The notes beneath the pieces are model-generated. The model ran no database searches and was not told where the DNA came from. It worked only from the letters and a program-made list of their open reading frames with translations. The translations under genes and the position numbers were made by a program. Of a stretch of DNA of 64,000 nucleotides, positions 3,797 through 17,012 are shown piece by piece; position 1 is the first letter of the stretch, and the number at the start of each line of letters is the position of its first letter. This stretch comes from Sneathiellales bacterium (lineage in GTDB: Bacteria; Pseudomonadota; Alphaproteobacteria; JANQFL01). Location of the stretch: positions 62,001-126,000 of the forward strand of contig JANQFL010000074.1 in the NCBI GenBank assembly GCA_028277845.1, in the 5' to 3' direction.

Positions 3797-4096
3797 ATGT
3801 TGTCGATACCCTGCCCCTGGTGCGGACCGCGCGACGAAACCGAGTATTCCTACGGCGGCGAAGCCCACATCGTACGGCCGGAAGATCCCCAGGCTTTGAG
3901 CGACCGTGAATGGGCGGACTATCTGTTCATGCGCGCCAATACCAAGGGGGCGCACCGCGAACGTTGGGTTCACAGCCACGGCTGCCGCCGCTGGTTCAAT
4001 GTGGAGCGCAACACCGCCACCAACGAAATCATCGCCGTCTACAAAATGGGGGAGTCGCCGCCCGGTGACGGTACCGGCGGGGACGGCGCGCCATGA
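3797..4096 (+). CDS. soxD: Sarcosine oxidase delta subunit
   Basis: Small zinc-binding subunit (99 aa) of heterotetrameric sarcosine oxidase. The N-terminal MLSIPCPWCGPRDETEY has the CPxCG knuckle and the later HSHGCRRWFNVERNT carries the remaining His/Cys ligands and the conserved RWFN block. In known structures this subunit fills a groove on the alpha subunit and is needed for assembly. The start ATG 3797 has GGAG about 9 nt upstream. Its stop overlaps the soxA start as ATGA at 4093-4096, which implies translational coupling. Confidence 0.95.
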   Translation: MLSIPCPWCGPRDETEYSYGGEAHIVRPEDPQALSDREWADYLFMRANTKGAHRERWVHSHGCRRWFNVERNTATNEIIAVYKMGESPPGDGTGGDGAP

Positions 4097-7000
4097 CACA
4101 GCGCCAGCGCTTGGCCAAGGGCGGCCGCATCGATCGCACCCGATTGTTGAGTTTCACGTTCGACGGCCGGTCCTACAAGGGGTATGCCGGTGATACGCTG
4201 GCGTCGGCGTTGATGGCCAATGGCGTTTCGGTCCTGGGCCGCAGTTTCAAGTATCACCGGCCGCGTGGGCTGTTCGGCGCCGGTGCGGAGGAACCGAACG
4301 CCATCGTGCAGTTGGAGGAAGGTCCGGACACCATCCCCAATCTGCGCGCGACGCAGGTCGAGCTCTACGACGGGCTGATGGCGTCGAGCGTCAACGCCTG
4401 GCCCGGGCTCGACTGGGACATCGGCGAAATCAACAGCCTGTTCTCGCGCGTTTTGCCGGCCGGTTTTTACTACAAGACCTTCATGTGGCCGGCCAGCTTC
4501 TGGATGAAATACGAGGAGGTGATCCGCCGTGCGGCCGGGCTGGGCCGCTGTCCGGAACATCCCGATCCGGATACCTACGACAAGATGCACGCCCATTGCG
4601 ACGTGCTCGTGGTCGGCGGCGGGCCGGCGGGCCTGATGGCGGCCCTGACCGCGGGGAAGGCGGGCGCCCGCGTCATCCTGGCCGACGAACAAACCGAATT
4701 CGGTGGCGCGCTGCTGGACCGCCGGAATGCGATCGACGGCAAACCCGCGGCGGACTGGGTTGCGGCCGCCGTCGCGGAACTTGAGGCCATGGAGGACGTC
4801 CGGCTTCTACCCCGCACCCACGCCGCGGGGTATTACGAACATAATTTTTTGACCCTACTCGAGCGCAAGACCGACCATTTGCATCCAGTGGCACGGCGTC
4901 GGACACCCGGCCCGCGGCAACGCCTGTGGAAGGTCCGGGCGGCGCAGGTGGTGCTGGCCACCGGTGCCATCGAACGGCCTCTGGTGTTCGCCGACAACGA
5001 CCGGCCGGGTGTGATGCTGGCGTCGGCGGCCCAAACCTATGTCAACCGCTACGGCGTCAAGCCGGGGTCGCGGGCCGTCGTGTTCACCAACAACGATTCC
5101 GCCTACGCCGCCGCCATGGATTTGCACGACGGCGGTGTCGACATCGCCGCCGTCGTCGACCTGCGCGAAAACCCCGGTGGCGCCCTGGTGACCGAAGCCC
5201 GCGGCAAGGGCATTACCGTTTTGGACGGTCGTGCCGTCGTCGCCACCGAAGGCCGCAAGCGCGTTCAGGCGGTCGATGTCGCGCCCCTGAGCGCCGACGG
5301 CCGTGTCGCGGAAGGCGCGCACCGCCGGTTCGAATGCGATCTGGTGCTGGTCTCCGGCGGCTGGAATCCGGCGGTTCATCTGTTCAGCCACGCCGGCGGC
5401 AAGTTGTCGTTCGAACCGGATCGCGCCCAGTTCCTGCCCGGTACGACACCCTTGCCATGCCGTGCCGCCGGATCTGCCAGCGGCGACATTCAACTGGCGC
5501 AGTGTCTGGCCAACGGACAAAAGGCCGGCGAAGTCGCCGCGGCGGCAAACGGGTTCCGCAGGCGGGGGCGCCTGCCCGGCATTCCGCAATGTGACGATGT
5601 GGCCGAAGGGCCGATGCGGCATGTCTGGCAGGTGCCGGGCCGAAAACCGGCGGCGCAACTGAAGCAGTTTGTCGATCTGCAACATGACGTCACGGCAGCG
5701 GACGTGCACCTGGCCGCCCGGGAAGGCTATGAGTCGGTCGAACACTTGAAGCGTTACACGACACTCGGCATGGGGACCGACCAGGGTAAGACCGCCAACA
5801 TCAATGGCCTGGCCATCATGGCGGAAACGCTCGGACGCGATATTCCCGGCGTCGGGACCACGACCTTCCGGCCACCCTACACACCGGTCACGCTCGGCGC
5901 CATGGCCGGCCGGGATGTCGGCGCGTTGGCCGACCCGGTACGGCGTACGCCGATGCATCACTGGCACGAGACCGCCGGCGCGTTGTTCGAGGATGTCGGC
6001 CAGTGGAAACGGCCCTGGTATTACCCCAAACAGGGCGAATCCATGCAGGACGCCGTGGATCGGGAGTGTTTGGCCACCCGGAACGCCATCGGCGTGCTCG
6101 ACGCGACGACTCTCGGCAAGATCGACATTCAGGGACCGGATGCCGCCGAACTGCTCAATCGTGTCTATACCAACGCCTGGAGCAAACTGGCGGTCGGGCG
6201 TTGCCGTTACGGGTTGATGCTGGGCGAAGACGGCATGGTCATGGACGACGGCGTGACCACATGTCTTGGCGAAAATCACTATCTGATGACAACGACCACC
6301 GGCAACGCCGCCCGGGTGATGGGCTGGCTCGAGGAATGGCTGCAGACGGAATGGCCCGATCTCAAGGTCTACCTCAACTCGGTCAGTGAATATTGGGCCA
6401 CGATCGCCATTGCCGGCCCCTTCGCCCGGGAACTGTTGGCGGAGTTGACGGACGATATCGACGTCGCGAACGAAGCCTTCCCCTTCATGTCGCTGCGCTC
6501 GGGAACAGTGGCGGGCATCCCGGCCCGGGTTTTCCGTATCAGCTTCACGGGCGAAGTCAGTTTCGAGATCAATGTGCCGTCGACCTACGGGCTGGCCATG
6601 TGGAACGCGGTGATGATGGCCGGGGAGAAATACGGCATCACACCGTTCGGCACCGAAACCATGCACGTACTGCGCGCCGAGAAGGGCTACATCATCGTCG
6701 GCCAGGACACCGACGGGACGATCACGCCCGGCGATCTGGGCATGGACTGGATCGTGTCGAAAAAGAAACCCGATTTCATCGGCAAACGCAGTCTGAGCCG
6801 GCAGGATACGGCGCGGTCCGACCGCAAGCAGCTGGTCGGTTTGTTGACGGAAAATCCGTCCGAAGTCCTGCCGGAAGGCGGTCAGATCGTCGCGATCGTC
6901 AAGGACAGCCCGCCCATGGATATGATCGGCCACGTCACGTCCAGCTATTACAGCGCCAATCTCGGGCGGTCCATTGCCCTGGCATTGGTCAAGGGGGGGC

Positions 7001-7110
7001 ATGACCGTCTTGGGAAGTCGGTCTATGTGCCTTTGGAAGGGCGAACGGTAAAGGCGAAGGTGTCCAAGACGGTGTTTTTCGATCCGGAAGGAGAACGGCT
7101 CAATGGTTGA
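4093..7110 (+). CDS. soxA: Sarcosine oxidase alpha subunit
   Basis: Large subunit, 1005 aa, the usual length for SoxA. An N-terminal ferredoxin-fold domain (about residues 10-110, with YKGYAGDTLASALMANG) is followed by a pyridine-nucleotide-disulfide-type domain with VLVVGGGPAGLMAALTAGKAG at 171-191. The C-terminal half (about residue 600 onward) is a GcvT-like folate-binding domain containing the blocks GLMLGEDGMVMDDGVTT, VSFEINVPSTYG and TPGDLGMDWIV. The protein binds NAD+ and tetrahydrofolate and channels the methylene group from the SoxB flavin site to folate. It overlaps soxD (ATGA) and soxG, so the four genes form one tightly coupled operon. The long antisense open frame over this gene is a composition artefact. 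Confidence 0.97.
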   Translation: MTQRQRLAKGGRIDRTRLLSFTFDGRSYKGYAGDTLASALMANGVSVLGRSFKYHRPRGLFGAGAEEPNAIVQLEEGPDTIPNLRATQVELYDGLMASSVNAWPGLDWDIGEINSLFSRVLPAGFYYKTFMWPASFWMKYEEVIRRAAGLGRCPEHPDPDTYDKMHAHCDVLVVGGGPAGLMAALTAGKAGARVILADEQTEFGGALLDRRNAIDGKPAADWVAAAVAELEAMEDVRLLPRTHAAGYYEHNFLTLLERKTDHLHPVARRRTPGPRQRLWKVRAAQVVLATGAIERPLVFADNDRPGVMLASAAQTYVNRYGVKPGSRAVVFTNNDSAYAAAMDLHDGGVDIAAVVDLRENPGGALVTEARGKGITVLDGRAVVATEGRKRVQAVDVAPLSADGRVAEGAHRRFECDLVLVSGGWNPAVHLFSHAGGKLSFEPDRAQFLPGTTPLPCRAAGSASGDIQLAQCLANGQKAGEVAAAANGFRRRGRLPGIPQCDDVAEGPMRHVWQVPGRKPAAQLKQFVDLQHDVTAADVHLAAREGYESVEHLKRYTTLGMGTDQGKTANINGLAIMAETLGRDIPGVGTTTFRPPYTPVTLGAMAGRDVGALADPVRRTPMHHWHETAGALFEDVGQWKRPWYYPKQGESMQDAVDRECLATRNAIGVLDATTLGKIDIQGPDAAELLNRVYTNAWSKLAVGRCRYGLMLGEDGMVMDDGVTTCLGENHYLMTTTTGNAARVMGWLEEWLQTEWPDLKVYLNSVSEYWATIAIAGPFARELLAELTDDIDVANEAFPFMSLRSGTVAGIPARVFRISFTGEVSFEINVPSTYGLAMWNAVMMAGEKYGITPFGTETMHVLRAEKGYIIVGQDTDGTITPGDLGMDWIVSKKKPDFIGKRSLSRQDTARSDRKQLVGLLTENPSEVLPEGGQIVAIVKDSPPMDMIGHVTSSYYSANLGRSIALALVKGGHDRLGKSVYVPLEGRTVKAKVSKTVFFDPEGERLNG

Positions 7111-7717
7111 TCCCTATCTCCGGCAAAGCCCGTTGGCGCATATGCACCTGAATACCCGCCCGGTGTCGACGGACGCCACGGTTTGGCTCAGGGAAGAGCC
7201 GTTCCGCACCCAAATTGTTCTGCGCGGAAACGCCGACAAAAAGCCGTTTCGCGATAGCGTGGAATCTGCCGTGGGCTGTGCCTTGCCCCGGGAACCCAAT
7301 TCGGTGACCGGGCCGACCGACTTGAACGACGGCACGCGCATCCTGTGGCTCGGCCCGGACGAATGGCTTCTGGTCGCGCCGGTCGGCAACGAGCAACAAC
7401 TGATGGAGACGCTGGCCGATACGCTCACGAAATTCCACGCCGCCGCGGTGGATGTCAGTGAAAGCCGCACGGTCCTTTCCGTCGGCGGGCCGAGCGCATC
7501 CGAGGCCCTGGCCAAGGGGTGCAGTCTGGATCTCCACCCCCGGTCCTTCGCGACGGGGCAGTGCGCCCAGTCGGAAATCGCGCGCGCGCACGCCATATAC
7601 CACAAAGTCGGCGAAGACCCCGTTTTCGAGCTCTACATCCATCGCAGCTACGCCGAATACGTTTGGATGTGGCTCGAAGATGCAACCGGAGAGTATGTCC
7701 CGGTGGCCGAGGGATAA
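7103..7717 (+). CDS. soxG: Sarcosine oxidase gamma subunit
   Basis: Fourth subunit of heterotetrameric sarcosine oxidase, 204 aa. It has the fold of the GcvT C-terminal half. Typical SoxG features are VDPYLRQSPLAHMHL at the N-terminus, ILWLGPDEWLLVAPVG in the middle, DVSESRTVLSVGGPSASEAL, and a C-terminal HRSYAEYVWMWLEDA. The ATG at 7103 overlaps the end of soxA (stop at 7108-7110) and is preceded by GGAAGGAG. Last gene of the operon. The 157 bp that follow contain a CtrA-like motif (see 7753-7767) rather than an obvious terminator. Confidence 0.94.
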   Translation: MVDPYLRQSPLAHMHLNTRPVSTDATVWLREEPFRTQIVLRGNADKKPFRDSVESAVGCALPREPNSVTGPTDLNDGTRILWLGPDEWLLVAPVGNEQQLMETLADTLTKFHAAAVDVSESRTVLSVGGPSASEALAKGCSLDLHPRSFATGQCAQSEIARAHAIYHKVGEDPVFELYIHRSYAEYVWMWLEDATGEYVPVAEG

Positions 7718-7874: not shown

Positions 7875-9257
7875 ATGTCGGACGAATCGAGGGACCTGAT
7901 CGATCGGCAGATAACCGCCGAATTGGTGGATATGGCGTTTCGCGGAACCGGGCTCAGCCTGCTGGTCGAGCCGGTCGCCGTCGGTGCCATGGCCGTGCTG
8001 TTCTACAACTCCGTACATCCCCAGGGGTTGGCGATCTGGGTTTCCCTGGTTCTCAGCGCAACCGCGTTTCGCGCCATCCTCTGGCACCGGTTTCACGGTT
8101 CCTCGCCGGAAGTTCGAAGCCAGGCCCGTTGGGGGCAAATTCTCGCGGTATCCATGTTGGTGTCCGGATTTGTCTGGGGCGGCGCCACGGTGCTGGTCTG
8201 GCCCGGCGGCTCGTTGACCGGCCAACTCGCCCTGTTCGGCATCGTCAGTATGGCGACGATCGGGATGTGCGGCTTGGTCACCGGCTACATTCCGGCGGCC
8301 AATGCGTTTCTGGGCGCCCTGCTGATCGTCGTTGTGCCGGTCATGATTACGAAGCAGGACGTCACCTACTACGTCACGGTGGCGTTTGCCCTGGTCTATG
8401 CGTTGATGCTGCTGGCCATCGCCCATCACATCAGAAATTTGCTGCGCCGGTCGGCGGAACTGCGTGTCGATCTGTCGGACGCCCGCGATGCGGCCCAGGC
8501 GGCCAACCACACCAAGTCCGAGTTCATTGCCAATATGAGCCACGAACTGCGGACGCCGCTCAACGCCATCATCGGGTTTTCCGAGATCATCCAGCAGCAG
8601 ACCTTCGGTCCGATCGAAAATGACCGCTACAAGGATTACATCGACGACATCCTGAATAGCGGCCGTCACCTGCTCGGAATTGTCACCGAAATCCTCGATC
8701 TGTCGAAGATCGAGGCCGGCAAGATGGATCTCAACGAACAGGAATGCAATGTGGCCGGCCTGGTTGACGGGTGCATCACGTTCCTGCGCCAGAAAGCCGA
8801 CGAAGCGGGCGTCATGGTGGTCAACGAGCTGCCGCCTCATGCGCCGTCCATTGTCGGCGATGAACGGGCGCTCAAGCAGATCGTCATCAATCTTCTGTCC
8901 AATGCCATCAAATTCACGCCGATCGGGGGCGAGGTACGCATTCGGCTCGACCCCTCTTCAACCGGCGGCATCAGTTTGAAAATCCGCGATACGGGGATCG
9001 GCATCGCCCCGGAGGACATCAAGAAGGTGATGGATCCCTTCGGTCAGGTGGAAAACGCCTATTCACGCCAGCATGAAGGCACCGGCCTCGGACTGCCGCT
9101 GGTCAAGGCGATGACCGAAATGCATCATGGGACTTTCCATCTGACGAGCGAAGTCGACCTGGGAACGGAAGCGATCGTCGAGTTTCCCGAGGATCGCGTG
9201 ATCGGAGCGTTCGATTACGCACCGCTGCAGTCAGAGGTTGTTTCGGTCCCGCACTAG
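7875..9257 (+). CDS. Membrane sensor histidine kinase (HisKA-HATPase_c)
   Basis: 460-aa sensor kinase. Residues 25-190 hold about five to six hydrophobic segments with no recognisable periplasmic domain, so the stimulus is probably membrane-associated or lipophilic. A short linker leads to the HisKA box [18 protein letters not shown] with phospho-accepting His223. HATPase_c follows with an N-box ([10 protein letters not shown]), G1 (RDTGIGI) and G2 ([11 protein letters not shown]). No receiver or PAS domain is seen, so it needs a separate response regulator, which is not in the window. The start ATG 7875 follows AGGG. It sits directly upstream of the cqsA-type gene and has the catalytic histidine that the CqsS-like protein at 10805 lacks, so a shared pathway is conceivable. 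A GC-rich hairpin followed by T's (9330-9352) may end the transcript. Confidence 0.93.
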
Positions 9258-9500: not shown

Positions 9501-10757
9501 ATGCCGGACAAGACCGCCGCGCCGCATCGTGGACGGCCGTCGGCGTCGCCGAGATGGGGTGAAATTCCGTCTCTGACGCGGCGAATCGATCAATTGTGGG
9601 TGGATCATCTGTATCCGCCCGTCGTCGTCGGCAGCACGCCCGGCCCGGACGCGCTTCTCCTCAGCAGCAACGACTATCTGGCGCTCTCCCACGACCGGCG
9701 CATTATCGACGCGCAAGTTCAGTCGTTGCGTGGCGCCGACAATGAACTGTTCATGTCGGGGGTGTATGCCCAGTATCTCGACTATCAGCGCGCCTTCGAG
9801 TTGGATATCGGAGAGCAGTTGGGGGCGGAAGATGTCGCGTTGTGCCAATCGGGATACGCAGCCAACGAAGGTCTGATCCAGGTTCTCGCCGATGCCGATA
9901 CACCCGTATATATCGACATGCAGGCGCATGCCTCGCTCTGGCAGGGGGCGCAGAACACCGGCGCGCCGGTCTATCCGGTGCGCCACAACAACGCGCAGCA
10001 TCTACGCACGCTGACCCGGAAGTATGGGCCGGGTGTCGTCTGCGTCGACGCCATCTACAGCACTGTCGGCAGTATCTGCAATCTCGGCGACATCATCGAC
10101 GTTTGCGAGGATAGCGGATCCATCCTGGTGGTCGATGAATCCCACTCCATCGGTGTTGTCGGCGAATTCGGTGAAGGGCTGGTCAGTTCCCTCGGCCTGG
10201 AAGACCGTGTGCCGTATCGCACATTCAGCCTGTCCAAGGCCCTAGTCGGCCGCGCCGGTATCGTGATGGGGCCGAAGCGGGTGATGGAATTCTTCCGCGG
10301 GGATTCCCGGCCGGCGATCTTCAGTTCCGCCGTCATGGGGTGGGAGATTGCCCGCTTTACGAAAACCTGGGACATCGTGCGGGACGAGAACTGGCGGCGC
10401 AAGGTGCTCTGGGACAATGCCCGGTATTTGAGCGACGGGCTCGATGCCCTGGGTTATAACATGGACCTGACCGAAACGCCGATCATTCCGATTGAAGCGG
10501 GATCGGAAAACGCCACCAAATTGCTGCGCGATACCCTGGAACGGGCCGGCATATTCGGCGCGGTCTTCTCCGGCCCGGCGACGCCGGCGAACCGCTGCAT
10601 CGTCCGTTTCTGCGTCAATGCGGCCCACACAAAGGAAGACCTCGACCGGGTGATCGAGGTCTGCGACCAGGTGCGTGACGACGTGGGTATGGCGAACTGG
10701 GCGTCCACCCGCCGCCGCAAAGGCCGGGCGCAGAACGTCGTTTCATTGAAGCCCTGA
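9501..10757 (+). CDS. cqsA: CqsA/LqsA-type alpha-hydroxyketone autoinducer synthase
   Basis: PLP-dependent acyl-CoA:amine synthase of the alpha-oxoamine synthase family, 418 aa. CqsA-specific features set it apart from KBL and BioF: SSNDYLALSHDRRIIDAQVQ near residue 56, a FMSGVY block at residues 84-89, VDESHSIGVVGEFGEG (Asp212, His215) and the PLP lysine in FSLSKALVGRAG (Lys246). Family enzymes condense an acyl-CoA such as decanoyl-CoA with S-adenosylmethionine or 2-aminobutyrate to make CAI-1 or LAI-1 type signals; the substrate here is unknown. The start ATG 9501 follows AAGGGA. It is convergent with a CqsS-like membrane protein, the arrangement expected of a signal synthase and its sensor. 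No AHL synthase is present in the window. Confidence 0.85.
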   Translation: MPDKTAAPHRGRPSASPRWGEIPSLTRRIDQLWVDHLYPPVVVGSTPGPDALLLSSNDYLALSHDRRIIDAQVQSLRGADNELFMSGVYAQYLDYQRAFELDIGEQLGAEDVALCQSGYAANEGLIQVLADADTPVYIDMQAHASLWQGAQNTGAPVYPVRHNNAQHLRTLTRKYGPGVVCVDAIYSTVGSICNLGDIIDVCEDSGSILVVDESHSIGVVGEFGEGLVSSLGLEDRVPYRTFSLSKALVGRAGIVMGPKRVMEFFRGDSRPAIFSSAVMGWEIARFTKTWDIVRDENWRRKVLWDNARYLSDGLDALGYNMDLTETPIIPIEAGSENATKLLRDTLERAGIFGAVFSGPATPANRCIVRFCVNAAHTKEDLDRVIEVCDQVRDDVGMANWASTRRRKGRAQNVVSLKP

Positions 10758-10804
10758 ATTTCGCGCCGGTCTGAACGGCGTACCGCCCACTTTCCGGCCG
10801 CTGC

Positions 10805-12169
10805 TCAGCCGTGCGGTTGATCCGGCATCACCGGCAACATGATGATGACTTCCGTGAATTCGCCGGGTTCCGAACGGGCGGAAATCGTGCCGCCGAATCG
10901 GTCGATGACGGCGGCGCAGAAGCGCAATCCCGATCCGGCGCCCTCCGGCGTGGTCACATGGTTGCCGTAGGTTTCGAACAGGCGGGACACCACCTGCTTG
11001 GGCATGCCGACCCCCTGGTCGCGGATCTTGATCACATTGCCCTGGGGTGTGGCGGCGACTTCGAAAAGCACCTTGCCGGTCCCTTTCAGGGAGACGGCCT
11101 GAAGGGCGTTCTTCGTCAGGTTCAGCAGGACGTGGGTCATGAGATTGACCGAGCCGTTGAACATGAAGTCGTTGTCCTTGCGCCAGGTGATGCGGGCCCG
11201 TTCCCGGTCTGATTTGAAGGGGTAGCGCCGCAATGCCTCGTTGATGCAGTGACTGATGGAGCACGGCCCGAGTTCGATGGAATGCAGGGGGAACTCGCCG
11301 GCGTTCATTTGCATCATGCTGACGACCGCCAGCGTGTGTTCGATTTCCGTTTCGATCTGTTGCGGCACGTCGCCGACGGCCTTGAGATGATTGGCATCCA
11401 GGTCCACCACGTCCAGGCCGGCGTGCTGGGCCTTGCCGTAGGCGTCGATCAGTTGCGGCAGGAAATGGCGCAGGCTGACGCTGCCGCGCTTGATCATCTG
11501 CAACGGCGGTCGGAGTTCCTTCGACAGGCTGTTCGCCGCGGCGGTCACCGCGCGCATGCGTTCCTGCCGGATCATGCCGGCCTTGTAGTTGAACACCATG
11601 CCGCCAAGTACCAGAAACACCAGAACCGGGAAGTATTCGAAATAGAACTCGGTCTGCATGCCCTCGGGCACGGTCACCGCGAAGACGCCCAGCGCGGCGG
11701 CCGATCCGACAACGTACAGAACCAGCAAATGAAACCAGTCGACCAACAGGATAAGGAAGAAGATCGCCGCCATCACCGACAACAGCCAGACGAACGAGGC
11801 GCCGTTCATCAGCATCATGTAGGTGAAAAAGAACGGCACGCTGTAAAGACACACGAACAGGTAATAGACCCGCGTATAGCGGCGCAGCGACTCCGGCCAT
11901 CGGTTGCGCAGCGCGAGTATCAGGCACAAGGCGGCGCCGATGGCTCGCAACAACAGGCTTTCGTACGGCTGCGGGAACAGAACGTCCCAGACGAGCCAGT
12001 ACACCAGAAACGCGATCGCCGCGAACAGGCCGACGAAAGTCAGGTTGGGTTCGACGTACGTGAAATTCTGCTGACCGAGCGCGCGGACGTAGGCCGCCGC
12101 TTTCGCCAAGCGGTGTAAACCGTGTTTATCGGAGTTCGCTCCACCGTTGAGAGCACGGTCTTGGTACAC
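10805..12169 (-). CDS. CqsS-like membrane sensor with degenerate H-box
   Basis: 454-aa protein. The N-terminal segment YVEPNLTFVGLFAAIAF, then FPQPYESLLLR, matches the CqsS/LqsS sensor family, and six hydrophobic segments fill residues 45-195. The dimerisation box reads NSLSKELRPPL: the position normally held by the phospho-accepting histidine is Lys217 (codon AAG on the coding strand). The HATPase_c part looks intact: N-box NLTKNALQAV (Asn354), G1 RDQGVGMP (Asp384), and G2 GAGSGLRFC. There is no C-terminal receiver domain, unlike Vibrio CqsS. It may therefore act as a ligand-binding pseudokinase, as a phosphatase, or as a partner of another kinase. The start is GTG 12169 by frame length only; no clear ribosome site is visible. 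Confidence 0.8.
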   Translation of the reverse strand: MYQDRALNGGANSDKHGLHRLAKAAAYVRALGQQNFTYVEPNLTFVGLFAAIAFLVYWLVWDVLFPQPYESLLLRAIGAALCLILALRNRWPESLRRYTRVYYLFVCLYSVPFFFTYMMLMNGASFVWLLSVMAAIFFLILLVDWFHLLVLYVVGSAAALGVFAVTVPEGMQTEFYFEYFPVLVFLVLGGMVFNYKAGMIRQERMRAVTAAANSLSKELRPPLQMIKRGSVSLRHFLPQLIDAYGKAQHAGLDVVDLDANHLKAVGDVPQQIETEIEHTLAVVSMMQMNAGEFPLHSIELGPCSISHCINEALRRYPFKSDRERARITWRKDNDFMFNGSVNLMTHVLLNLTKNALQAVSLKGTGKVLFEVAATPQGNVIKIRDQGVGMPKQVVSRLFETYGNHVTTPEGAGSGLRFCAAVIDRFGGTISARSEPGEFTEVIIMLPVMPDQPHG

Positions 12170-12754: not shown

Positions 12755-14305
12755 CTAATGGCTGGCGTCCGGCATGCTGGCTTTCTTGGCATCGATGAAC
12801 GCGTTGAGCGCCTCGTCAAGGGCCGGGTCCAGATCCGGCGCCTCGTAGCGCGCCAGCATGTCCTTCCATAGCCCGTTGGCCCGTTGCGCCGCATCCCGGC
12901 TGCCTTCGGCTTCCCATTGTTCCACCGAATTGTTGTCGGCCACGGGAGAACGGTAGAACGCGGTCTCGAAATGGGCCTGGGTGTGGCCGCAACCGAGGAA
13001 GTGATTGCCCGGCCCCACTTCGCGGATGGCGTCCATGGCCTGGCCGTCGTCGCTCAGATCGACGCCCTTGGCCAGCACCTGCATCATGGCGCATTGGTCC
13101 GCGTCCATGACGAATTTCTCGTATGACGCCGCCAGGCCGCCCTCCAGCCAGCCGGCCGCATGCAGCACGAAATTGACCCCGGCCATCAGGGTCGGCAACA
13201 GCGTCTGGGCGCTCTCATAGGCCGCCTGGGCGTCGGGCACCTTGGAGCCGCAGAGCGAGCCGCCGGAGCGGAACGGCACGCCAAGGCGCCGCGCCAGTTG
13301 CGCCGCGCCGTACAGCACCAGGGCCGGTTCCGGCGTACCGAAGGTGGGCGCGCCCGACTGCATGGAAATCGAGCTGGCGAAGGTGCCGAACACGACCGGC
13401 GCGCCCGGCCGCACCAGTTGGGTCACGGCCATGCCGGCCATGGCCTCGGCCAGGATCTGGGCCAGGGTGCCGGCCACGGTGACCGGGCTCATGGCACCGG
13501 ACAGGATGAACGGCGACACCACGCAGGCCTGGTTGGCCCGGGCGTAGGCCTTCAAGGCGCCGAGCATGGTGGCGTCGAAGACCATCGGCGAATTGGCGTT
13601 GATCAGATTGACGACCACGCAGTTGGCGTCGACGAAATCGGCGCCGAACAGGATGCGGCACATCTCCACCGTGTCCTCGGCCCGCAAAGGGTGAGTGACC
13701 GAGCCCATGAACGGTTTGTCGCTCAGCCGCATGTGGCTGTAGACCATGTCCAGGTGGCGCTTGTTCACCGGCAGATCGACCGGCTCGCACACCGTGCCGC
13801 CGGAATGATGCAGGCCGGGGCTGAGATAGGCCAGTTTGACGAAGTTCCGGAAGTCCTCGATGGTCGCGTAGCGCCGCCCTTCATCGAGATTACGGATAAA
13901 CGGCGGGCCGTAGACCGGCGCGAACACCGTATTGTTGCCGCCGATCTCCACGTTGCGGGCCGGGTTGCGGGCATGCTGGGTGAACTGTTTCGGTGCGGTG
14001 GCCAACAGCGTCCGCGCCAGGCCGCGCGGGATGTGCACCCGCTCGCCCCGCACGTCGGCGCCGGCGTTGCGCCACAATTCCAGCGCCTCGTCATCTTCCC
14101 GGAAATCGATACCGATCTCTTCCAGAATGGTTTCGGCGTTGTACTCGATGGTTTCGAGGCCATCGTCGCTCAACACCTCGGTCAGCGGGATCTGCCGGCT
14201 GATGTAGGGAGCCTGCTGCTCCACCGGGGCCGCCCGCGCCGCCCGCCGGGCCTCGCGCCCGCCGCCTGCCCGCCGGCCGCGCCGGCCGGTCTGTTCCTGC
14301 GCCAT
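12755..14305 (-). CDS. MttB-family (non-pyrrolysine) methyltransferase
   Basis: 516-aa member of the trimethylamine methyltransferase superfamily. True MttB carries pyrrolysine at an in-frame TAG; here the frame is uninterrupted and the region reads GGSLCGSKVPDAQAAYES, so this belongs to the non-Pyl branch. Characterised non-Pyl members demethylate glycine betaine, proline betaine, carnitine or butyrobetaine onto a corrinoid protein. The N-terminal 27 residues are Arg/Gly/Ala-rich (GRRGRRAGGGREARRAARA) and precede the barrel, which begins near the EYNAETILEEIGIDF block. Context fits glycine betaine: a GcvT-type dehydrogenase upstream, the cognate corrinoid operon divergent beyond that, and betBA in the window. 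The substrate is inferred, not shown. It is separated from the dehydrogenase by 139 bp. Confidence 0.9.
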   Translation of the reverse strand: MAQEQTGRRGRRAGGGREARRAARAAPVEQQAPYISRQIPLTEVLSDDGLETIEYNAETILEEIGIDFREDDEALELWRNAGADVRGERVHIPRGLARTLLATAPKQFTQHARNPARNVEIGGNNTVFAPVYGPPFIRNLDEGRRYATIEDFRNFVKLAYLSPGLHHSGGTVCEPVDLPVNKRHLDMVYSHMRLSDKPFMGSVTHPLRAEDTVEMCRILFGADFVDANCVVVNLINANSPMVFDATMLGALKAYARANQACVVSPFILSGAMSPVTVAGTLAQILAEAMAGMAVTQLVRPGAPVVFGTFASSISMQSGAPTFGTPEPALVLYGAAQLARRLGVPFRSGGSLCGSKVPDAQAAYESAQTLLPTLMAGVNFVLHAAGWLEGGLAASYEKFVMDADQCAMMQVLAKGVDLSDDGQAMDAIREVGPGNHFLGCGHTQAHFETAFYRSPVADNNSVEQWEAEGSRDAAQRANGLWKDMLARYEAPDLDPALDEALNAFIDAKKASMPDASH

Positions 14306-14444: not shown

Positions 14445-17012
14445 CTACGATTTCATGCGCCCATTGGTCGGGTCGTAGAGCGGTTTGTAACCGACGGCCT
14501 CGACCTGGACCGGGAACTTTTGATTGAAGTATTCGATCTCGAGCTGGCGGCCCTCTTCGCAGTAATCCTGCGGCAGGTAGCCGAGCGCGATGTTCTTGCC
14601 GAGTGACGGACCGTAGGCCAGGCTGGTGGTGTAGGAGCGCCGGCCAAGCGCGTCGATCAGCACCTCGTCGGACTTGGGATCGACGATGGGACAGTTGCCC
14701 ATGGGGTAGCGCGCCACGCCGTCCTTGTCGGTATTGTCCGTGACCGTGAGCGTACAAAGCATCGCCGGCTGGTGCGGCCGTTCGCGCTGCGCGACATAGG
14801 CCGCCTTGCCGTGGAAATCGGCGGTCTTGACCTTCGGGCGGGCGAGACCGGCCTCGACCAGATTGTACTCGGTCAGAAGGTCCGCGTTCTGTAGCCGCAG
14901 GCTTTTCTCCAGCCGGCGGCTGTTGGCGTAGGTCTCGATGCCGATCGGGGTGATGCCGGCTTCAAGGAACATGTCCCACAAGGCCAGGCCGTAGCTCAAC
15001 GGGAAGTGCAGTTCCCAGCCCTGCTCGCCGACATAGGAAATGCGGAAGCCTTTCACCGGCACGCCGCGCAGGGTGAAGTCCCGGCTGGCCGCGAAGGGGA
15101 AGTTTTCCGGGTCCAGTCCGGCCGGGTCGTCGGCCAGCGTCTTCAGGCGCTCGCGGGCGTTCGGCCCCCAGACGCCGATGCAGCCGTAGTGATCGGTGCG
15201 GTCCTCGACGAACACCGACCATTCCTTGTCCTGCACCATACGGCGCAGGTAGGTCATGTCGCGATGGCCGGCGTCGGCGCCGTCGATGACGCGGAAGCGG
15301 TCCTCGGCAAGCCGCAGCACGGTCAGGTCCGCCTGCACGCCGCCGGCGGCGTCGAGGAAATTGGTGTAGACCCCCTTGCCGACCGGCGTATCGCCCGCGA
15401 CCTTCGAGGACGACACATACTCCATCAGCCGTTCCGCGTCGCGGCCCGAAACGTCGTAAATGGTGAAGTGGGACAGGTTGATCATGCCGACGTTTTCCGA
15501 CAGCTCCAGATGCTCTGCGTTGGAGACGCGCCAGAAATGGCGGTTGTCCCATTCGTTCTCGCGCACCGGCACGCGGTCGGCGTATTTGGCCAGCAGCGTC
15601 TCTTCGTTGGACGCGTAGCCGTGCGCCCGTTCCCAGCCGGCGATGTCCATGAAGTAGCCGCCCAGTTCCCGCTCGCGCAGATAGAACGGGCTGCACCGCA
15701 GGTTCCGGCCCTTGGAGTAGGGCTCGCGGTTGTGGACGGGCGGATTGTAGATCTTGAACGCCGTCTCGTAGCAGCGGTCGTAAATGAAGGGCTCGGTCTT
15801 CTGGACGGGGTAGTAGCGGGCGTAATCGATGGCATGATGATCGAACTCGGTGCGCCCGTCGGTCATCCAGTCGGCGATCACCTTGCCCGTGCCCGGGCCG
15901 TCCTTGATCCAGACCGACACGCCGTACCACAGGCCGCGCACGTCCGGCGACTCGCCGATGGACGGCCCGCCGTCGGCGGTCACCTGAAGCAACCCGTTGA
16001 AGGAGTGCTTCTCGTTGTAGCCCAGCTCGCCGAGGATCGGCGTCAGTTCCATGGCGCGTTCCAGGGGTTCCATGATCTGTTCCATTTCCAGATCGCGCTG
16101 GGAGGGCGAGAGGCGGGCCTCCTCTTTTTCCAGCAGGTCGCGCGGATGCACGAGGCGGGGCGCCTTCTCCTCGTAGTAACCCCATTCGATCTGACCGCCC
16201 TCGGCGGTTTTCGGATCACCGGTGTCGCGCAGATAGGCGGAGTTGCCCTGGTCGCGCAGCAGCGGATAACCGATTTCCTTGCCGGTACCCGCGAATTCGT
16301 TGTAGGGCCCGAAGAAGGTCAGCGGATGGTCGACCGGCATGACGGGCAGGTCCTCGCCCGCCATCGCCGCGATCAGGCGGCCCCACAGGCCGGCGCAGAC
16401 GACGACGTAACTCGTCTCGATGTAACCGCGCGACGTGTGGACGCCCTTGATGCGACCGTTCGCGATGTCGAGGCCGGTGCACGGCGTGTTGGCGATGACT
16501 TCCAGCTTGCCGGTTTCCTCGGCGTCGCGGATCATTTCTCCGGCGACCACCTGGGAGCGCGGGATGACCAGGCCCGCGTCCGGATCCCACAGCGCGCCCT
16601 GGATGAGGTCTTCCTCGATGATCGGTAACAGTTCCTTCACCCGCTTCGGCGTGATCAGTTCGACCCGGTTGCCGAAGGCGCGGCCGGAGCTGACCCGGCG
16701 TTCGAGTTCGCGCATGCGCTCGTCGTCGCCCTTGCGGGCGACCTCGATGCCGCCGATGCGGGAATAGCGGCCGCGCTTCTCAAAAAAGTCGATGCTGTAT
16801 CTGGTCGTGAAGATCGTCATCTGGTCGTGCATCGTGTTGAAGCAGAAATCCGACGCATGGCCGGTCGAGCCGATGTCGGTGGGAACACCTGATTTGTCGA
16901 TCCCGATGATGTTGTCCCAACCCCGCTCGATCAGGTGGTGGGCAACCGAGGCCCCGACGATGCCGCCCTGTCCGATGATCACGACGTTCGCGCTTTTCTG
17001 GAACTGCGCCAT
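14445..17012 (-). CDS. FAD-dependent GcvT-family dehydrogenase (dimethylglycine/sarcosine dehydrogenase-like)
   Basis: 855 aa with two parts. An N-terminal DAO-type FAD domain carries VVIIGQGGIVGASVAHHL at residues 9-26 and STGHASDF, whose His is at the position of the covalent FAD histidine of dimethylglycine dehydrogenases. The C-terminal part (about residue 430 onward) is a GcvT-type tetrahydrofolate-binding region with VYTNFLDAAGGVQADLTVLR and YVGEQGWELHFPLSYGLALW. Such enzymes oxidatively demethylate N-methylated glycines and hand formaldehyde to folate. The start ATG 17012 is preceded by GGAGACGGAG. It is co-oriented with the MttB-family gene downstream, so it may process that enzyme's demethylated product. 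Exact substrate not determinable from sequence. Confidence 0.9.
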   Translation of the reverse strand: MAQFQKSANVVIIGQGGIVGASVAHHLIERGWDNIIGIDKSGVPTDIGSTGHASDFCFNTMHDQMTIFTTRYSIDFFEKRGRYSRIGGIEVARKGDDERMRELERRVSSGRAFGNRVELITPKRVKELLPIIEEDLIQGALWDPDAGLVIPRSQVVAGEMIRDAEETGKLEVIANTPCTGLDIANGRIKGVHTSRGYIETSYVVVCAGLWGRLIAAMAGEDLPVMPVDHPLTFFGPYNEFAGTGKEIGYPLLRDQGNSAYLRDTGDPKTAEGGQIEWGYYEEKAPRLVHPRDLLEKEEARLSPSQRDLEMEQIMEPLERAMELTPILGELGYNEKHSFNGLLQVTADGGPSIGESPDVRGLWYGVSVWIKDGPGTGKVIADWMTDGRTEFDHHAIDYARYYPVQKTEPFIYDRCYETAFKIYNPPVHNREPYSKGRNLRCSPFYLRERELGGYFMDIAGWERAHGYASNEETLLAKYADRVPVRENEWDNRHFWRVSNAEHLELSENVGMINLSHFTIYDVSGRDAERLMEYVSSSKVAGDTPVGKGVYTNFLDAAGGVQADLTVLRLAEDRFRVIDGADAGHRDMTYLRRMVQDKEWSVFVEDRTDHYGCIGVWGPNARERLKTLADDPAGLDPENFPFAASRDFTLRGVPVKGFRISYVGEQGWELHFPLSYGLALWDMFLEAGITPIGIETYANSRRLEKSLRLQNADLLTEYNLVEAGLARPKVKTADFHGKAAYVAQRERPHQPAMLCTLTVTDNTDKDGVARYPMGNCPIVDPKSDEVLIDALGRRSYTTSLAYGPSLGKNIALGYLPQDYCEEGRQLEIEYFNQKFPVQVEAVGYKPLYDPTNGRMKS

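Follow-up and report, generated by a model that had tools for sequence, protein, structure and literature searches.

The alpha-hydroxyketone signalling systems closest to the locus analysed here are CqsA-CqsS of Vibrio and LqsA-LqsR-LqsS of Legionella, the latter together with the lqs-type clusters of Burkholderiales and Rhodanobacteraceae. For CqsS, the published ligand positions include Trp104 and Ser107, which face the head group, and Phe162, while the position associated with tail length is Cys170 in V. cholerae and Phe175 in V. harveyi (PMC3376566, PMC3285556).

We analysed a 64-kb stretch of bacterial DNA (the window) that carries a related set of genes. With Vibrio it shares the synthase family, the equivalents of Trp104, Ser107 and Phe162 and the convergent genes; Vibrio CqsS, however, is a hybrid kinase with the H-box HEMRNPL and a C-terminal receiver, whereas the sensor of the window has neither the histidine nor a receiver. 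With the lqs-type clusters it shares the synthase family, the membrane region of the sensor and a separate sensor that lacks a receiver domain. The lqs-type sensors keep their histidine and adjoin a regulator of the LqsR family, while the window lacks both and has an additional kinase. None of the open-access papers searched describes a CqsS-type pseudokinase, or CqsA in Tistrella.

Results

Organization of the locus and the synthase

The genes lie in the order kinase, cqsA, sensor, with cqsA and the sensor gene facing each other across a gap of 47 bases. The open reading frames and coordinates given in an earlier note on this DNA agree with the window (Table 1). That note had also described the synthase as CqsA-like with a PLP lysine, and this description stands: the protein scores 455.3 bits against NCBIfam NF005526 (alpha-hydroxyketone autoinducer synthase; cut-off 428), and its residues 41-390 align with V. 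cholerae CqsA (PDB 2wk8), with the PLP lysine matched. By score and PLP lysine it belongs to the CqsA/LqsA family and is a putative maker of an alpha-hydroxyketone.

The signalling genes are probably surrounded by a methylamine or betaine demethylation cluster. Sarcosine/dimethylglycine oxidase-like genes flank them on both sides (4093-7717 and 14445-17012), and the gene next to the sensor (12755-14305, minus strand) is trimethylamine--corrinoid methyltransferase-like (TIGR02369, 278 bits, under the cut-off of 525).

Table 1 Features of the signalling locus in the window.
Feature	Position	Strand	Basis and remarks
Partner histidine kinase	7875..9257	+	Hydrophobic membrane N-terminus; intact HisKA and HATPase_c; orthologues beside every His-less sensor found
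Putative cqsA/lqsA-type alpha-hydroxyketone autoinducer synthase	9501..10757	+	NF005526; alignments to PDB 2wk8 and relatives
CqsS/LqsS-type sensor pseudokinase, 454 aa	10805..12169	-	Convergent with cqsA; Pfam, alignments, structure model
CqsS-type membrane receptor region, about residues 30-200	11570..12082	-	Trp128 and Ser131 (head group), Phe185 and Phe193 (tail pocket) kept
Lys217 codon AAG, replacing the phospho-acceptor His	11519..11521	-	Codon reading 11521-11519 and alignments
DHp-like helical hairpin without acceptor His, about residues 200-290	11300..11572	-	Predicted model; likewise in the truncated Tistrella sensor
HATPase_c domain	10829..11278	-	Motifs intact in the window but eroded in L049/L050; domain missing from Tistrella

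The sensor has lost its phospho-acceptor histidine

The H-box of the window sensor reads SLSKELRPPL, and Lys217 aligns with the histidine of the HE(L/M)R motif of other CqsS-type sensors. Codon and alignment thus agree with the earlier reading of SKELRPPL with lysine in place of histidine; any histidine codon lies two substitutions away. The other domains are also as the note had them, that is, a CqsS-like membrane region, an intact ATP-binding domain and no receiver. The receptor region, of the six-helix CqsS type, is about 28-42% identical to those of His-bearing sensors, the ATPase part matches Pfam HATPase_c (E 3.6e-17) and keeps the N-box, G1 and G2 motifs, and Pfam finds neither HisKA nor a receiver domain in the protein.

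In HisKA proteins, the motif E-x-x-T/N after the acceptor histidine is the phosphatase-type motif. The corresponding residues are ELRP in the window sensor, EMQS and EMQL in its two nearest relatives, which are metagenome-assembled genomes (MAGs), and MVQT in Tistrella, so that the pattern is absent from all of them. We also considered an alternative acceptor nearby and rejected it, as no cytoplasmic histidine is common to the six His-less sensors in the alignment. With its acceptor histidine replaced, the window sensor falls outside the CqsS/LqsS kinases in the strict sense, but it is clearly descended from them.

Pocket residues were mapped by counting from the H-box against the CqsS positions in PMC3376566 and PMC3285556. 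Trp104, Ser107 and Phe162 of CqsS correspond to Trp128, Ser131 and Phe185, all three kept in all six His-less sensors. The tail-length position is phenylalanine in all six (Phe193 in the window sensor), which may point to a ligand with a short acyl tail.

Relatives with the same loss

A search for the receptor region across 84,980 prokaryote genomes returned 24 loci; the window genome is the sole member of its family and order in the collection searched. The two nearest relatives, the alphaproteobacterial MAGs L049 and L050, have the identical three-gene arrangement, and their H-boxes (LAKEMQSPL and LAKEMQLPL) keep the lysine, which answers the earlier question of whether Lys217 persists in relatives of the same synteny. 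Because the lysine is common to independent assemblies and two base changes from any histidine codon, a sequencing error or a private mutation is rejected. Within the order of L049 and L050, the sensor occurs in just those two among 43 genomes.

The nearest sensor of Tistrella mobilis has arginine in place of the histidine (AGRMVQTPL). Three Tistrella species share the arginine (GRMVQTPL) and have no ATPase domain, the protein stopping soon after the helical hairpin. The truncated sensor lies directly behind the kinase in 3/3 Tistrella-group genomes examined; in T. mobilis its ATG is 5 bp past the stop codon of the kinase, which is 39% identical over its full length to that of the window, and cqsA lies about 35 kb off on the same plasmid.

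The His-less set is small: its six species fall into three orders, and half of them belong to a single genus. Lysine or arginine occupies the acceptor column in 6/65 aligned sensors, and these six are precisely the ones accompanied by the partner kinase; the count cannot be used as a probability because the independent lineages are few. All other CqsS-type sensors retain the histidine (59/59; 58 by motif tally and L082 from the alignment), and no partner kinase was found beside these 59, about half of whose loci span only about 3.7 kb.

Some receptor homologues occur in other settings. In four small alphaproteobacterial genomes of 0.9-1.4 Mb (L082, L083, L085 and L089), the CqsS-like receptor regions lie inside frames of 798-923 aa and are preceded by several hundred residues in the stretches read. 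On plasmid 1 of Polaromonas sp. JS666 (L047), a CqsS-like kinase and an LqsR-like regulator adjoin BREX genes (brxC), with no cqsA within the stretch examined.

The partner kinase is intact and follows the His-less sensors

The gene across cqsA from the sensor does encode the complete HELRTPL kinase that had been described there: Pfam finds full HisKA and HATPase_c domains, and the H-box histidine is His223 (codon 8541-8543). The membrane region of this kinase family is just 25-29% identical between lineages. It scores at least 267 bits in exactly those 4/385 genomes of the class in which the His-less sensor occurs, and the next best score is 60, with no intermediate values among the 385; since the profile was built in part from these four genomes or from near relatives of theirs, this gap arises partly by construction.

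Against the DivJ and PdhS models the kinase reaches 218 and 213 bits, short of the curated cut-offs of 1000 and 2000. Other kinases of the genome match these models equally or better, and we therefore dropped a DivJ/PdhS-DivK assignment as unsupported. Elsewhere in the same genome, the gene for a 135-aa single receiver precedes that for a 472-aa protein in which two receiver regions are matched (G000:C119:3621-4797), a pair looking like divK-pleD.

In the sensor tree, the six His-less proteins form one clade (97/93 with the H-box columns), implying a single change of state. The same clade and the single change are recovered at 93/91 without the H-box columns and without five of the longest branches. 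When the H-box columns are dropped and the long branches kept, the His-bearing hybrid kinase L045, on a very long branch, joins the sensor of the window; with these columns dropped, a His-less clade remains compatible with the data by the AU test (p 0.27). The six partner kinases likewise form one clade (99/94) in a tree of kinase cores only, built with 55 kinases from the window genome and the class. The kinase of the window branches first in this tree, as does its sensor in the other.

L045 itself, on plasmid 2 of Paraburkholderia caribensis, adjoins a gene resembling 3-oxoacyl-ACP synthase III that may encode another kind of signal synthase; no cqsA is present in the stretch examined.

Loss of the LqsR-type output

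In the nearest His-bearing relatives (a betaproteobacterial MAG, Paraburkholderia and Luteibacter), a regulator gene overlaps or abuts the sensor gene. Its product has a receiver at residues about 80-170 (Pfam Response_reg) and fits the published description of LqsR (PMC3376566). At E 1e-6, LqsR is present in 3/3 His-bearing control genomes and in 0/6 His-less genomes, including that of the window. The acceptor histidine and the regulator are thus both missing in the clade with the partner kinase. No receiver domain or linked response regulator is encoded in the window, and the neighbouring genes examined in L049, L050 and Tistrella include none either.

Catalytic decay and selection

The ATPase domain appears at three stages: intact in the window, without N-box, G1 and G2 in L049 and L050, and absent in Tistrella. 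Pfam HATPase_c finds no match in the sensors of L049, L050 and Tistrella. AlphaFold models of the window and Tistrella sensors predict a long helical hairpin behind the membrane helices, to which the window protein adds the ATPase domain. In Foldseek searches this domain matches nucleotide-bound kinases, while the truncated Tistrella model returns nothing significant against the PDB.

Between L049 and L050, dN/dS of the sensor is 0.13 in the membrane part, 0.25 in the hairpin and 0.39 in the ATPase part; for the whole Tistrella sensor it is about 0.1 or less. The membrane and hairpin parts are under purifying selection. A pseudogene is rejected, as these values are well below 1. The gradient is that expected if the receptor and the hairpin were in use and catalysis were not.

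Discussion

We consider it likely that the window encodes a split quorum-sensing receptor, in which a ligand-binding CqsS-type pseudokinase would signal via a dedicated partner kinase, because the message-relaying part of the sensor is lost and the same intact kinase always lies alongside. The earlier suggestion of a pseudokinase controlling its neighbour kinase has in this way gained strong comparative support, with the lysine shared by L049 and L050 and the pairing kept in Tistrella. In the proposed mechanism, CqsA would make an alpha-hydroxyketone presumably similar to CAI-1 or LAI-1. The CqsS-type protein, predicted to be unable to carry a phosphoryl group, would bind it via the conserved membrane pocket. 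The state of the ligand might then pass to the partner kinase through the membrane helices, the retained DHp-like hairpin or both, with contact and direction as we propose them here. The partner kinase would supply all kinase and phosphatase activity and would phosphorylate an unlinked response regulator as its putative target.

A more specific and tentative version, which we rate as somewhat less probable than its opposite, is that the two proteins form an obligate hetero-oligomer via the DHp-like hairpin, combining a non-catalytic ligand-binding subunit with a dedicated kinase, and that this arose after the LqsR output was lost. If true, this would be a histidine kinase observed while it divides into a receptor subunit and an enzyme subunit.

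Other roles for the sensor have to be weighed against the split receptor. The intact HATPase_c motifs of the window sensor and the Foldseek match of its ATPase domain to nucleotide-bound kinases would suit a kinase acting in trans, in a heterodimer where this domain phosphorylates His223 of the partner. Such a mechanism cannot be the shared one, since the domain is eroded in L049 and L050 and absent in Tistrella yet the pairing persists, and we regard it as unlikely, although the normal-looking ATPase domain of the window itself may have some catalytic role. Alternatively, the pseudokinase may have another target, either a different kinase or no kinase at all, with the linked kinase a mere passenger beside cqsA. 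The kinase and sensor genes of the window are indeed on opposite strands and separated by cqsA, and the case for their contact is built from genetic linkage and co-inheritance; but the Tistrella kinase stays with the sensor and not with cqsA, and the two families occur in the same genomes with trees of similar shape, which makes the passenger reading quite improbable. The progressive loss of the catalytic domain could finally mark the sensor as a decaying remnant, with the partner kinase alone detecting the autoinducer. This appears very improbable given that the membrane part is the best conserved (dN/dS about 0.13, and about 0.1 or less in Tistrella), that the known ligand-contact positions are kept, and that the truncated form is fixed directly 3' of the kinase in 3/3 Tistrella-group genomes examined.

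Pseudo-histidine kinases have been described one at a time, and for most of them no ligand is known. For the putative split receptor of the window, the linked synthase reveals the probable ligand family, the gene of the partner kinase is linked too, and extant species seem to represent the three stages of catalytic decay; the handover of catalysis to a partner is therefore directly testable.

Among described pseudokinases, DivL of Caulobacter has tyrosine in place of the acceptor histidine, and its cytoplasmic part reads DivK~P; unlike the window sensor, it does not serve as a membrane quorum receptor. A kinase-like protein without the acceptor histidine, it controls the kinase CckA (PMC4211667). 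RocA of group A Streptococcus, a six-transmembrane pseudokinase, offers the closest tested parallel: it interacts with CovS, exerts its effect via this kinase and can do without its CA domain (PMC7028121). By analogy, the sensor of the window, like RocA a pseudokinase of histidine-kinase type, may need a separate, complete kinase to signal. The two are not homologous as systems, however; RocA keeps a dispensable histidine and is not known to have a linked signal synthase. The locus of the window also suggests that alpha-hydroxyketone quorum sensing has a third type of wiring, beside those of Vibrio and Legionella.
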